This document shows, piece after piece, positions 8,741 through 13,679 of a stretch of 64,000 bases of DNA (position 1 is the first letter of the stretch; every line of letters starts with the position of its first letter). Source of the DNA: Actinacidiphila alni (GTDB taxonomy: Bacteria > Actinomycetota > Actinomycetes > Streptomycetales > Streptomycetaceae); contig NZ_FONG01000002.1 of assembly GCF_900112845.1 (NCBI RefSeq), forward strand, positions 310,001 through 374,000, in the 5' to 3' direction. Under the pieces are notes generated by a model. The model did not search any database and was not told the origin of the DNA. It was given only the letters and a program-made list of their open reading frames with translations. Position numbers and translations under genes: made by a program.

Positions 8741-9823
8741 TCAGCGCTCGACCTCGCCGCGGATGAACTTCTCCACGTTGTCGCGGGCCTCGTCGTCGAA
8801 GTACTGCACCGGCGGGGACTTCATCAGGTAGGAGGACGCCGACAGGATCGGGCCACCGATACCGCGGTCCTTGGCGATCTTCGCCGCACGGATCGCGTCG
8901 ATGATGACACCCGCGGAGTTCGGGGAGTCCCAGACCTCGAGCTTGTACTCCAGGTTCAGCGGGACGTCACCGAAGGCACGGCCCTCGAGGCGGACGTACG
9001 CCCACTTGCGGTCGTCCAGCCAGGCCACGTAGTCCGACGGGCCGATGTGGACGTTCTTGGCGCCCAGGTCGCGGTCCGGGATCTGCGAGGTGACGGCCTG
9101 CGTCTTGGAGATCTTCTTGGACTCCAGACGCTCGCGCTCGAGCATGTTCTTGAAGTCCATGTTGCCGCCCACGTTGAGCTGCATGGTGCGCTCGAGGATG
9201 ACACCGCGGTCCTCGAAGAGCTTCGCCATGACGCGGTGCGTGATGGTGGCGCCGACCTGGGACTTGATGTCGTCACCGACGATCGGGACACCGGCCTCGG
9301 TGAACTTGTCCGCCCACTCCTTGGTGCCGGCGATGAAGACCGGGAGGGCGTTGACGAAGGCGACCTTGGCGTCGATGGCGCACTGGGCGTAGTACTTCGC
9401 CGCGACCTCGGAGCCGACCGGCAGGTAGCAGACCAGGACGTCGACCTGGCGGTCCTTGAGGATCTGGACGATGTCGACCGGGGCCTCGGTGGACTCCTCG
9501 ATGGTCTCGCGGTAGTACTTGCCGAGGCCGTCGTTGGTGTGGCCGCGCTGCACGGTCAGACCGGTCTGCGGGACGTCGCAGATCTTGATGGTGTTGTTCT
9601 CGCTGGCGCCGATGGCGTCCGCGAGGTCGAGGCCGACCTTCTTCGCGTCGACATCGAAGGCGGCCACGAACTCGACGTCACGCACGTGGTAGTCGCCGAA
9701 CTGCACGTGCATGAGACCAGGCACCTTGCTGTCCGGGTCGGCGTCCTTGTAGTACTCGACACCCTGCACCAGCGACGCGGCGCAGTTGCCTACGCCAACG
9801 ATGGCTACGCGAACCGAACCCAT
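8741..9823 (-). CDS. ino1: inositol-3-phosphate synthase
   Basis: 360 residues from ATG 9823, the family's usual length in actinobacteria. It converts glucose-6-phosphate to 1D-myo-inositol-3-phosphate with NAD as cofactor, feeding phosphatidylinositol and mycothiol synthesis in the cytoplasm. Visible: the N-terminal Rossmann motif [18 protein letters not shown]; the conserved block [27 protein letters not shown]; and [20 protein letters not shown] near the C-terminus. The ATG at 9821-9823 has AGGGAG eight bases upstream and gives the conserved [10 protein letters not shown] start. It lies 23 bp downstream of the padR gene and is almost certainly co-transcribed with it. Confidence 0.97.
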
Positions 9824-9846
9824 ACCGGTTGCTCCCTGTGTAATCG

Positions 9847-10491
9847 TCACGCGGTTCCCCGGCTTTCGGGTCGGCCGCCGTTCTCTTGGTTGTTGTCGTG
9901 TGTGTCCTGCTCGGAGTCCGGGCGCGTGGTGTCGCGTCCGGCCCGCTCGGTCTCGATCAGCTCGTTGAGCCAGCGGACCTCGCGCTCCACCGATTCCATG
10001 CCGTGCCGCTGCAGTTCGAGCGTGTAGTCGTCGAGCCGCTCGCGGGTACGGGCCAGTGAGCCGCGCATCTTCTCCAGGCGTTCCTCAAGGCGGCTGCGCC
10101 GCCCCTCGAGGACCCGCATCCTGACGTCCTTCGACGTCTGGCCGAAGAAGGCGAACCGGGCGGCGAAGTGCTCGTCCTCCCAGGCGTCGGGACCGGAGGC
10201 GGCGAGCAGCTCCTCGAAGTGCTCCTTGCCCGCGGCCGTCAGCCGGTAGACGATCTTCGCCCGGCGGCCGGCGAGGCCGGTCGTCGGCGGACCGCTGTCC
10301 ACCACCGACTCCTCGATCAGCCACCCCTGCGTGACCAGCGTCTTCAGACAGGGATACAGACTCCCGTAGCTGAAGGCGCGGAACACCCCGAGCGAGGTGT
10401 TGAGCCGCTTGCGCAGCTCGTAGCCGTGCATGGGGGACTCGCGCAGCAGACCGAGAACCGCGAATTCGAGGATTCCGGAGCGCTTGCTCAA
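9847..10491 (-). CDS. PadR family transcriptional regulator
   Basis: 214 residues. An N-terminal winged helix ([26 protein letters not shown]) is typical of PadR proteins. A C-terminal helical segment (residues ~110-190) contains heptad-like [23 protein letters not shown], the usual dimerisation arm. Regulators of this family sense small molecules and commonly repress their own operon. The TTG start at 10491 ([10 protein letters not shown]) has GAGGGG upstream and matches homologues. The frame is open for another 53 codons, but that part covers the operator array. It precedes ino1 by 23 bp, so control of inositol synthesis is a reasonable inference; the ligand is unknown. Confidence 0.9.
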
Positions 10492-10571: not shown

Positions 10572-10644
10572 GATGTATCCGTCTGATGTGTCGGCGTGAT
10601 GTATCGAGTCGATACATCGGGACGATAGAACGCTTCGACACATC
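10572..10644. promoter_or_regulatory. 13-bp-phased operator array upstream of padR-ino1
   Basis: Direct copies GATGTATC (10572), GATGTGTC (10585) and GATGTATC (10598), then inverted copies GATACATC (10611) and GACACATC (10637). The first four starts are exactly 13 bp apart and the fifth is 26 bp further on, with a degenerate GATAGAAC in the empty register at 10624. The pair at 10598-10618 is a perfect palindrome with 9-bp arms and a 3-bp centre. It lies 80-155 bp upstream of the padR start and is most likely the PadR operator. Confidence 0.65.
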
Positions 10645-10786
10645 ACGCAAGGCGGTGCACGGTGACCGGTGTCACAGCGGGTGTCACAAGATGAAACCTG
10701 TGAGGCGTCAACCGTCCGTTATGTGATGAACGTTCGCCGGGTGGGTCTTTTGACCGTGCGTACTCTGTTCGCCATGCAGAGCACCG

Positions 10787-10916: not shown

Positions 10917-13679
10917 ATGAGCGAGCACCGTCGCAAGCAGCCGCCGCAGTCGCCCCCGGGCGGCCGCGCCGCCGCCCGGCGCGGAGGACAGCAGCCGACG
11001 CCCCCGGCGTCCGGCGGCCGACGAGCGGCCGGTGGCCCCCCCACCGGTTCCCGTAGCGCGATGTCCAGCGGCGGTCTGCCGCCCGGCGGACCCGGCGGTC
11101 CGCCCACCGGCTACGGCGCTGGCCCCGGCGGCTCCGGCGGTCCCGGCGGTTCCCCCGCGGGCGGCGCCCCGTACGAAGGACGCGCCGCGGCCCGCCGCGC
11201 CGCACAGGGCCGCGGCGGCGGTGGCAACGGCAACGGAGGCGGCCGGCGCAGAGGCACCGGCGGCCCCGGTGGCCCCGACGGCGGTGCGGGCCGCGGCCCC
11301 GGCCGCCGGCCCGCCAAGAAGCGCTTCATCGACTACCCGCGCTTCGGCAAGGAGGGCTGGCAGCGCTGGATGCCGTCCTGGCGGCAGGTCACGGCGCTCT
11401 TCATCGGCTTCGCCGGCACCCTCGTCGGCATCGCGGGCATCGCGTACGCCATGGTCGACATCCCCGACGAGAACAAGGCGGCCATCGCCCAGAACAACGT
11501 CTACTACTGGGCCGACGGCACCCGCATGGTCGCGCACGGCGGTGACTTCAACCGGCAGAACATCACGTACGACCAGATCCCCAAGGCCATGCGCTACGCG
11601 GTGATCTCGGCCGAGAACAAGACCTTCGAGACCGACTCCGGCGTCGACCCGATGGGCATCACCCGCGCCCTGTTCAACATGGCCAAGGGCGGCGAGACGC
11701 AGGGCGGCTCGACCATCACCCAGCAGTACGTGAAGAACTCGATGCTCGACCAGTCGCAGACGGTCAGCCGTAAGTTCAAAGAGCTGTTCATCTCCATAAA
11801 GGTCGGCGCGAAGGTCAGCAAGAACGACATCATCACCGGCTACCTGAACACCTCCTACTTCGGCCGCGGCGCCTACGGCCTCCAGGCCGCGGCGCAGACG
11901 TACTACGGCGTCGACGCGGTCCGGCTCAACCCCAGCCAGTGCGCCTTCCTGGCCGCGCTGCTCAAGGGCCCGACGTACTACGACCCGCTCGGCGCCGAGG
12001 GCATCGACCCGGCGGCGACGGCCGAGGCCAACACCAAGCGGTCCACCGAGCGCTGGTCCTGGATCCTGGACCAGGAGGTCAAGTACGGCCACATGACGCC
12101 CACCGAGCGCGCCCGGTGGACCAAGTACCCGATGCCGCAGGGCCTGAAGGTGCAGGCCGGCATGAGCGGTCAGATCAGCTACCTGGTCGACACGGTGAAC
12201 AACTACGTCACCACGCACTCCAGTCCGAAGATCACACAGAAGGACCTCGACCGCGGCGGCTACCAGATCTACACGACCTTCGACAAGAACAAGGTCAACG
12301 AGCTGAAGAAGTCCGTCGAGGCCGTCCGCAAGAAGAACATCAAGCCCGGCGGCTCGCACAAGTACCAGGGCGACGACGCGGAGTACCAGGGCACCGACGC
12401 CGACACCAACGTCCAGTTCGGCGCCGCCTCGGTCGTACCGGGCGACGGCAGGATCGTGGCCATCTACGGCGGCGAGGGCTACGAGAAGGGCGAGTTCAAC
12501 AACAACGCCAACACCAGTGGTGTGCCGGTCGGCTCGACCTTCAAGCCGTTCGTACTGGCGGCGGCCATGCAGTACGGCACCAACCACAGCAACGGCAAGC
12601 CCATCACGCCGGAGAGCAAGTACAACGCCAACGACCTGATCGAGATCAGGGACCACAACGGCGACCTGGTCAGGAACAAGGACGGCTCGGTCTTCAAGCA
12701 GAAGAACGAGGACACGATCAAACGCGGCTACGTCCCGCTCATGACGGCCATGCAGTACTCGATCAACAGCCCGTTCGTGCAGCTCGGCGAGGACGTCGGA
12801 CTGGACAAGGTGGAAACGACCGCGGAGAGCGCGGGGCTGCTGAAGGGGAGCATGGCCGACAAGGTCGCCTCCTTCTCCATCGGTACCTCCACGCCCAGCG
12901 CGATCCGGATGGCCGACGCGTACGCCACCTTCGCCAAGTCCGGCGTGCAGGTCGACCCGTACTCGGTCACCAAGGTGATCCACAACGGCGAGCAGCTCGA
13001 CGGCTTCGAGCGGCCCAAGACCAAGCAGGCCATGGACGGCAACATCGCGAACAACGTCACCAAGGTCCTGGAGAACGTGGTCAAGAAGGGCACCGGCACC
13101 AAGGCCCTGGAGCTGGGCCGTACGGCGGCGGGCAAGACGGGTACCACCGACAGCCCCGGCGGCACCCGGTCCGCCTGGTTCGTCGGCTACACCCAGCAGC
13201 TGTCCACGTCCGTGGTGATGTTCCGGCAGGACACCAAGGCCAAGAAGCTGCTGCCGATGTCCGGCACCGGCGGCAACTCCTCGATCCACGGTGGTGACCT
13301 CCCGGCCACCATCTGGACCGACTACATGAAGGCCGCGCTCGGCAACTCCGACGACCCGGGCTTCCCGGACGCCACCAAGATCGGCGACCCGCAGAACGAG
13401 CCCGGCGCCCCGTCGCCGACGCCGACCAACACCACGCCGCCGCCGACCCCGACGGACACGCCGACCACGACGCCGCCGACCACGCCCACGATGACGACGC
13501 CGCCGCCGACCACCCCGCCGACGACGCCCCCGCCCACCACACCGGGCGGCCCGTGCCTGCCGTGGGACCAGTCCTGCCAGACGACACCGCCGACCAGTCC
13601 GACGACGACACCGACGACCGACGGACCGGGGAACGGTGGCGGTGGCGGCGGGCACACGCAGCAACCCAACGACGGATAG
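10917..13679 (+). CDS. bifunctional transglycosylase/transpeptidase penicillin-binding protein (class A)
   Basis: 920 residues. Order: Gly/Pro/Arg-rich cytoplasmic tail (1-150); one membrane anchor (~158-180); GT51 glycosyltransferase with the catalytic Glu in SAENKTF (E233) and the conserved GGSTITQQYVKN; then the transpeptidase with SxxK (S540-TF-K543), SxN (S615-I-N617) and KTG (K740-TG). The C-terminus is a Pro/Thr-rich tail of ~100 residues containing two Cys (PCLPWDQSCQ). It polymerises lipid II and cross-links murein outside the membrane. ATG 10917 has TAGGAG upstream. The downstream GT87 gene starts 48 bp later. Confidence 0.95.
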   Translation: MSEHRRKQPPQSPPGGRAAARRGGQQPTPPASGGRRAAGGPPTGSRSAMSSGGLPPGGPGGPPTGYGAGPGGSGGPGGSPAGGAPYEGRAAARRAAQGRGGGGNGNGGGRRRGTGGPGGPDGGAGRGPGRRPAKKRFIDYPRFGKEGWQRWMPSWRQVTALFIGFAGTLVGIAGIAYAMVDIPDENKAAIAQNNVYYWADGTRMVAHGGDFNRQNITYDQIPKAMRYAVISAENKTFETDSGVDPMGITRALFNMAKGGETQGGSTITQQYVKNSMLDQSQTVSRKFKELFISIKVGAKVSKNDIITGYLNTSYFGRGAYGLQAAAQTYYGVDAVRLNPSQCAFLAALLKGPTYYDPLGAEGIDPAATAEANTKRSTERWSWILDQEVKYGHMTPTERARWTKYPMPQGLKVQAGMSGQISYLVDTVNNYVTTHSSPKITQKDLDRGGYQIYTTFDKNKVNELKKSVEAVRKKNIKPGGSHKYQGDDAEYQGTDADTNVQFGAASVVPGDGRIVAIYGGEGYEKGEFNNNANTSGVPVGSTFKPFVLAAAMQYGTNHSNGKPITPESKYNANDLIEIRDHNGDLVRNKDGSVFKQKNEDTIKRGYVPLMTAMQYSINSPFVQLGEDVGLDKVETTAESAGLLKGSMADKVASFSIGTSTPSAIRMADAYATFAKSGVQVDPYSVTKVIHNGEQLDGFERPKTKQAMDGNIANNVTKVLENVVKKGTGTKALELGRTAAGKTGTTDSPGGTRSAWFVGYTQQLSTSVVMFRQDTKAKKLLPMSGTGGNSSIHGGDLPATIWTDYMKAALGNSDDPGFPDATKIGDPQNEPGAPSPTPTNTTPPPTPTDTPTTTPPTTPTMTTPPPTTPPTTPPPTTPGGPCLPWDQSCQTTPPTSPTTTPTTDGPGNGGGGGGHTQQPNDG

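Follow-up and report, generated by a model that had tools for sequence, protein, structure and literature searches.

A candidate InoR operator array on a 13-bp grid at the inoR-inoA promoter of Actinacidiphila alni

The inoR-inoA locus and its repeated elements

The DNA analysed here (the window) is a stretch of 64,000 nucleotides from Actinacidiphila alni (contig NZ_FONG01000002.1, positions 310,001 to 374,000), in which a series of 8-bp elements occupies a 13-bp grid upstream of inoR. This gene encodes a PadR-family regulator and lies directly upstream of inoA (ino1), the gene for myo-inositol-1-phosphate synthase, with both genes on the minus strand and inoA overlapping the end of inoR by 4 bp, in the arrangement of an inoR-inoA operon. 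The pair matches inoR-inoA of Streptomyces coelicolor (SCO3900/SCO3899), a known regulator-enzyme operon. The registers of the grid, R1 to R6, are counted along inoR transcription, and the features of the locus are as follows.

8741..9850, minus strand: inoA (ino1), myo-inositol-1-phosphate synthase (Pfam PF01658, E 2.2e-36; open reading frame list)
9847..10491, minus strand: inoR, PadR-family regulator, with a TTG start set by alignment to homologues
10572..10579, minus strand: R6, GATACATC in the inoR sense (GATGTATC on the plus strand), in the 5′ leader
10585..10592, minus strand: R5, GACACATC in the inoR sense (GATGTGTC on the plus strand), downstream of the predicted start
10598..10618, minus strand: putative core operator dyad R3+R4, GATGTATC-N5-GATACATC, with 13-bp pitch (plus strand: GATGTATC at 10598-10605, R4; GATACATC at 10611-10618, R3), overlapping the predicted inoR-inoA transcription start
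10622..10650, minus strand: predicted inoR-inoA promoter, -35 TTGCGT at 10645-10650, 17-bp spacer, -10 TATCGT at 10622-10627
10624..10631, minus strand: R2, GTTCTATC in the inoR sense (GATAGAAC on the plus strand), a 6/8 match to the element, overlapping the predicted -10
10637..10644, minus strand: R1, GATGTGTC in the inoR sense (GACACATC on the plus strand), within the 17-bp spacer between the predicted -35 and -10

InoR carries a PadR winged-helix domain (PF03551, E 6.3e-16, 58.6 bits against a curated cut-off of 27), and it matches 8jxk (Rv0047c of Mycobacterium tuberculosis; phmmer E 1.2e-51, 52% identity). The AlphaFold2 model (predicted local distance difference test score 75.8, predicted template modelling score 0.57) places C-terminal helices at 121-149 and 155-183 and has 8jxk as its best structural match (Z 18.2, root mean square deviation 3.1 over 166 residues), the corresponding values for 8ioi (PadR Rv1176c) being Z 15.0 and 3.0 over 174 residues. 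As modelled, InoR has the PadR fold of a winged helix with C-terminal helices.

Five 8-bp elements stand on the grid, which spans from the promoter spacer across the predicted start into the leader, and the coordinates and 13-bp registers that the initial annotation gave for them are all exact. The register that it had left empty is R2, which holds the predicted -10 box of the inoR (padR) promoter. In the window, R3 and R4 form a perfect palindrome, as had been claimed, with arms of 10 bp around one base (10598-10607 and 10609-10618) rather than the 9 bp first assigned; 9 bp is instead the part kept in relatives, GATGTATCG-N3-CGATACATC, where, across 166 non-redundant sequences, one outer spacer base is G in 95% and the other C in 96%. 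The core carries ATGT-N11-ACAT, i.e. inverted PadR half-sites at a spacing other than the 8 to 10 bp of a single dyad. The element itself, GAT-NN-ATC, equals its own reverse complement apart from the two middle bases, so that any two full neighbours give an identical ATC-N5-GAT dyad in either sense. As 13 bp corresponds to 1.24 helical turns (at 10.5 bp per turn), neighbouring elements are rotated by 86 degrees, and elements 26 bp apart by 171 degrees, placing the latter on nearly opposite helix faces. Helical phasing of the array is ruled out by this 86-degree residual per step, and the description of the array as ‘phased’ was wrong in that sense.

The series is well beyond what base composition would give. 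With elements scored at 7/8 or better and the pitch free to vary between 9 and 20 bp, the longest unbroken run in the intergenic region is four (10572 to 10611, pitch 13), whereas in 400 dinucleotide shuffles of the region the longest run was zero in 310, one in 90 and never higher, which rules out a chance repeat; no longer run occurs anywhere else in the window. In the 8.27-Mb genome, GATGTATC is found at 37 places, three of them within the array, and the core at no more than one mismatch is found at a single place. Relaxing the core to three mismatches adds eight places, two of which are neighbouring register pairs of the same array; the pattern then matches nine times on each strand, and its reversed control once. 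Among the 11 PadR matches in the genome only inoR has elements paired at 13 bp (the other 10 were scanned within ~1.5 kb), so that such pairing is ruled out as a general PadR property. A wider InoR regulon was likewise rejected, as the genome has no second site at one mismatch or fewer and the nearest candidate is poorly conserved. This candidate, GATATATC-N5-GATATATC with TATCGT just upstream, shares the geometry of the inoR operator and precedes a methyltransferase-like gene (locus L215, positions 1501-1521; G000:C13:162301-162321); an exact copy is present in 1/35 genomes of the genus, so that it is not a conserved target.

The core dyad and the extra elements in relatives

InoR was found in 34/35 genomes of the genus (E 1e-40), 121/121 of the family (E 1e-30), 99/99 of the order (E 1e-20) and 130/148 of the class (E 1e-15), in samples that overlap (84 of the 99 order genomes belong to the window's own family). 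Upstream DNA was read at 261 loci: 201 from the order, including same-species repeats and amounting to 193 distinct sequences, and 60 from the rest of the class, taken from the 119 InoR-bearing genomes outside the window's family. Loci L211-L217 lie outside this set, and L157 was left out as it has no recognisable InoR start; within the genus, 33 of the 35 genomes were read. Removal of flanks at least 75% identical, from the order loci and 58 kept class loci, left 166 non-redundant sequences (110 from the order, 56 from the rest of the class); L274 and L275, with five arm mismatches each, had been dropped.

At no more than three mismatches in the 16 arm bases, the core is present in 259/261 upstream regions; absence of the array in relatives had been named beforehand as the outcome that would speak against it, and for the core this did not occur. 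In the 193 distinct order sequences the core is perfect in 177 and has one mismatch in 15, and L169 shows seven mismatches within 300 bp and passes when 400 bp are read. In the 60 regions outside the order the core is perfect in 30 and carries one mismatch in 9, two in 14, three in 5 and five in 2, and in 1200 mononucleotide shuffles serving as their control one sequence reached three mismatches and none fewer. Scanned over whole genomes with one mismatch allowed, a single core site is found in 120/121 family genomes (two in G061), as fits a regulator of its own operon. Across the class the core at one mismatch or fewer accompanies InoR, being found in 75/130 genomes with InoR against 2/18 without (P 2e-4); these sites were counted genome-wide, and their adjacency to inoR was read among the matches listed. 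The two class genomes with a core and no InoR match have it at G220:C277:208-228, near a contig end, and at G291:C41:7882-7902. Two further observations concern the regulator and its site: L274 and L275 (family f6) carry an altered operator, AATATATC-N5-GATACTAT, upstream of InoR, possibly with operator and regulator drifting together, and in two genomes inoR is split into two overlapping, frameshift-like matches (G103:C1:3892412-3893004 and G143:C1:4628323-4628939), the core operator still being present in G103.

The conserved palindrome might instead work at the RNA level, as a hairpin in the 5′ leader, since the core could form an 8-bp stem with a 5-nt loop. At least one pair of this stem is broken in 30/166 non-redundant sequences against five double changes that restore one, and it is on this pair breakage that a hairpin was rejected; in addition, the first arm contains the predicted start and the same-sense extra copies are unable to pair with each other. 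We regard the hairpin as extremely improbable.

The promoter next to the core was assigned from its conservation, because scanning the locus for a strict sigma-70 consensus gave no hit. Among the order sequences TATCGT occurs in 95/110, with TTG 17 or 18 bp upstream in 106/110, and in the rest of the class TATCGT occupies the same place in 19/56, with TTG 16-19 bp upstream in 33/56. By this spacing, transcription is predicted to start within R3, at about 10615-10617. The initial proposal that the array lies over the padR-ino1 promoter is thereby borne out, as the array overlaps the predicted -10, spacer and start.

To place the extra copies, matches of at least 6/8 to the element were located by their offset from the core in the 166 non-redundant sequences, against a mean element rate across all flank offsets of 1.1%. 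The top offsets are -13 (102/166), -60 (51/165), +26 (32/164), -26 (21/166), +39 (20/162), +52 (8/138) and -71 (9/165), five of the seven being multiples of 13, while +65 (2/90) is barely above the mean. The -60 peak is GATGTGAC, a part of the Crp-like site described below, and the weaker peak at -71 in order sequences is also off the grid. Downstream of the core, 62/660 in-register positions bear an element against 32/7782 out of register (Fisher 2e-46, an optimistic value as the sequences are related and their independence is overstated). Counted per sequence, an extra element stands in phase 0 in 42/166 and in any other phase in at most 7, and a 13-bp pair out of phase is seen in 2/166. The spacing between extra elements peaks at 13 (22 cases) and 26 (7 cases), and the pitch is exact: the best element (at least 6/8) near the third register lies at +26 in 32/44 cases, and that near the next at +39 in 20/31. 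Both senses are represented among the extra elements (40 reverse, 13 forward, 9 tied). At this threshold, R1 is found in 29/33 genus members and 21/166 sequences overall, R5 in 5/33 and 32/164, and R2 in 102/166 overall.

The extra elements also bear the marks expected of a series of protein-bound sites, which should show bases conserved within elements and variable between them. In genus g19 (sister family f3), nine species carry three extra elements after the core in which 24/24 element columns are invariant and 10/15 spacer columns vary; these species, which make up nine of the 13 f3 sequences read, were chosen with their arrays already in view. Compared with L010, its closest relative (95% InoR identity), the window agrees in R5 and R6 at 15/16 element bases and at 4/10 spacer bases (P 0.005).

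Such conservation bears on an explanation in which the core dyad alone works and the extra elements are weak, transient and functionless by-products of tandem duplication of a 13-bp unit. In L046 (Streptomyces zagrosensis) the registers downstream of the core are split by identical AGCTC spacers, as recent duplication predicts, and this array does look like the product of one. By-products would also agree with the rarity of long arrays, as two or more in-register extra elements downstream are present in just 14/166 sequences and R6 in 2/33 genus members. Against this, the invariant columns in g19 are 24/24 for elements and 5/15 for spacers, R5 and R6 follow the same trend between the window and L010, R1 is kept in 29/33 genus members, and the spacers between the window copies are unlike each other, so that these copies are not a fresh duplication. 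On balance, functionless by-products seem unlikely, and the comparisons indicate that the array is real, recurs in relatives and is an operator under selection in the lineages tested.

Two further features flank the array upstream.

10662..10676, minus strand: Crp-like site TGTGA-N6-TCAC, upstream of the inoR promoter
10917..13679, plus strand: divergent penicillin-binding protein gene (Pfam PF00912, PF00905)

The divergent gene is not thought to belong to the operator system. In the looser form TGTGA-N6-TYAC, the Crp-like site is found in 90/110 sequences of the order, lying at -58 from the core in 77 and at -59 in 11, and in 0/56 from the rest of the class, and none appeared in 50 shuffling rounds. 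The Streptomyces Crp motif is given as GTG-N6-GNCAC in passages of PMC10033298, and this strict form is present in 29/110 order and 3/56 other class sequences; the window site GTGACACCGGTCAC (minus strand, 10662-10675) satisfies it. The conserved motif suggests that a control by carbon status, acting through the Crp-like site, may be added to that by InoR.

A proposed InoR operator and the evidence against it

Taken together, we consider it probable that the array is the operator of an autoregulated inoR-inoA operon, in which an InoR dimer would bind the core and further half-sites would follow on the 13-bp grid. An autorepressor that blocks RNA polymerase is suggested because the site is near-unique per family genome, lies beside its own gene and overlaps the predicted start by the -10. 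InoR of S. coelicolor is said, in the work of Zhang et al. in 2012, to repress inoA and to be released by glucose-6-phosphate. In the present case, an InoR dimer on the core dyad over the predicted start, next to the -10, would shut RNA polymerase out of its own promoter by steric block. The remaining elements would be further InoR half-sites, one in the -35/-10 spacer, one at the -10 and two in the leader, among which ‘direct’ and ‘inverted’ copies would be interchangeable, so that dimers may be added stepwise outward from the core. Dimers on the alternate junctions R1-R2, R3-R4 and R5-R6 could occupy opposite helix faces, given the 171 degrees between elements 26 bp apart. Longer arrays would then mean higher occupancy and tighter repression. 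Cooperative filling, first suggested together with a graded control of inositol synthesis, would be more likely to make the response steeper.

The operator most likely belongs to InoR, and the distribution of the site bears on a rival in which the grid is read by another regulator, namely WhiI, alone or together with BldM, or a BldC-like protein polymerising on direct repeats. The DNA-binding domain of WhiI binds the sco3900-sco3899 promoter in vitro according to passages of PMC4125116, which also report that WhiI does not regulate these genes in Streptomyces venezuelae. BldC binds direct repeats as cooperative multimers according to parts of PMC5859096, where its repeats measure 9 bp and include an AT-rich part, against 13 bp and a palindromic core here. 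The present site co-occurs with InoR and is near-unique per family genome, unlike the sites of a global regulator, and we judge a different reader of the grid very unlikely.

Several observations weigh against an InoR operator of the kind proposed. Concerning the pairing of site and regulator, 55/130 class genomes with InoR have no core site at one mismatch or fewer, the single site counted in G333 is ~264 kb from inoR, and two other PadR genes of this genome carry element pairs as well, L298 at 26 bp and L299 at 11 bp. As to the extra copies, the 14/166 sequences with two or more downstream and the 2/33 genus members with R6 (20/162 non-redundant sequences) count here too. The full downstream extension is present in 2/33 genus members, such that array length is lineage-specific, and 4/13 f3 sequences (L174, L178, L179 and L181; genera g20 and g21) have no extra elements. 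The multi-copy array noted at the outset recurs as on-grid extra copies in several lineages, although within the genus its full downstream extension is confined to these two of the 33 members read. In R1, window and L010 show no contrast between element (8/8) and spacer (4/5).

The half-sites give a mixed picture. Were the inter-element dyad the unit, the inner half of a terminal element should be the better kept, as is seen in R2 (inner TATC 123/166, a count confounded by promoter function, vs outer GAT 11/166) and in R5 (inner G[AG][CT]A 86/164 vs outer ATC 32/164). On the opposing side, the outer GAT of R1 (23/166) is at least as common as its inner [AG]TC (17/166), the halves of R6 are equal (inner 16/163, outer 17/162), and the -10 overlap accounts for R2 without InoR. 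Retention of the inner half alone at the ends is thus rejected as a general rule, as it fits R2 and R5 and fails for R1 and R6. There is also a geometric objection, in that dimers on adjacent 13-bp junctions would overlap; in passages of PMC5050560, the recognition helices of cdPadR1 are 34 Å apart, consistent with half-sites ~10 bp apart.

A more speculative version of the InoR operator, which we consider rather doubtful, would have InoR form a filament or spiral whose lattice repeats every 13 bp (1.24 turns), with two back-to-back half-sites in each nearly self-complementary element. The core would nucleate the assembly, which would spread both ways regardless of element sense, and copy number would be an evolving dial on the repression of inositol synthesis. 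We know of no PadR protein that assembles in this manner on such a lattice.

Comparison with known systems

Inositol feeds mycothiol and phosphoinositides in actinomycetes (in passages of PMC4255298) and is linked to Streptomyces differentiation (in passages of PMC7581861). A core kept across the class, to which differing numbers of extra copies are added on one grid, offers a natural series on how the number of repressor sites sets the response of a promoter, within the PadR family, which is usually pictured with single dyads. In the open-access literature searched, no description of a 13-bp InoR array was found, and an earlier one may exist.

Of the known PadR-type operators, those of LmrR and others are ATGT/ACAT dyads and that of cdPadR1 is TACT-N11-12-AGTA, as described in parts of PMC5050560. 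The inverted ATGT...ACAT promoter site is common to these and to the window core (ATGT-N11-ACAT), whereas the spacer is 8 or 10 in the former and 11 in the latter, and the window has five elements over six registers, a strict 13-bp grid and a near-palindromic element. The multi-copy site had been called unusual for PadR, and the array does depart from the single dyad; the same parts of PMC5050560 report two sites for LmrR and two inverted repeats for cdPadR1, such that operators with two sites are on record. BldC operators resemble the window array in their variable repeat number, fixed pitch and proposed stepwise filling, and differ in that a MerR-like protein reads 9-bp repeats about one helical turn apart and head-to-tail (passages of PMC5859096), whereas the window has a 13-bp pitch, a palindromic core and elements in either sense. 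With its 13-bp pitch, 86-degree residual and palindromic core, the array does not have the character of a BldC-type series of head-to-tail direct repeats.

At the level of the genes, the PadR-like gene Rv0047c of M. tuberculosis is cotranscribed with ino1, a pair comparable to that of the window, and its reading frame is reported to contain an IpsA site (both in passages of PMC3899939). A close counterpart is InoR-InoA of S. coelicolor (SCO3900-SCO3899; Zhang et al. 2012, Mol Microbiol 83:1178, cited in PMC4255298, PMC7581861 and PMC4125116), which has the same kind and order of genes as the window; inoR is named as the regulatory gene of the adjacent inoA in passages of PMC4255298, and the two are called an operon in those of PMC7581861. 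Among the sequences listed, Streptomyces inoR upstream regions mostly have the core and a partial third element, L046 with its long array being an exception, and the window array is longer. The array represents the operator of a known operon in a lengthened form, with an unusually long layout.
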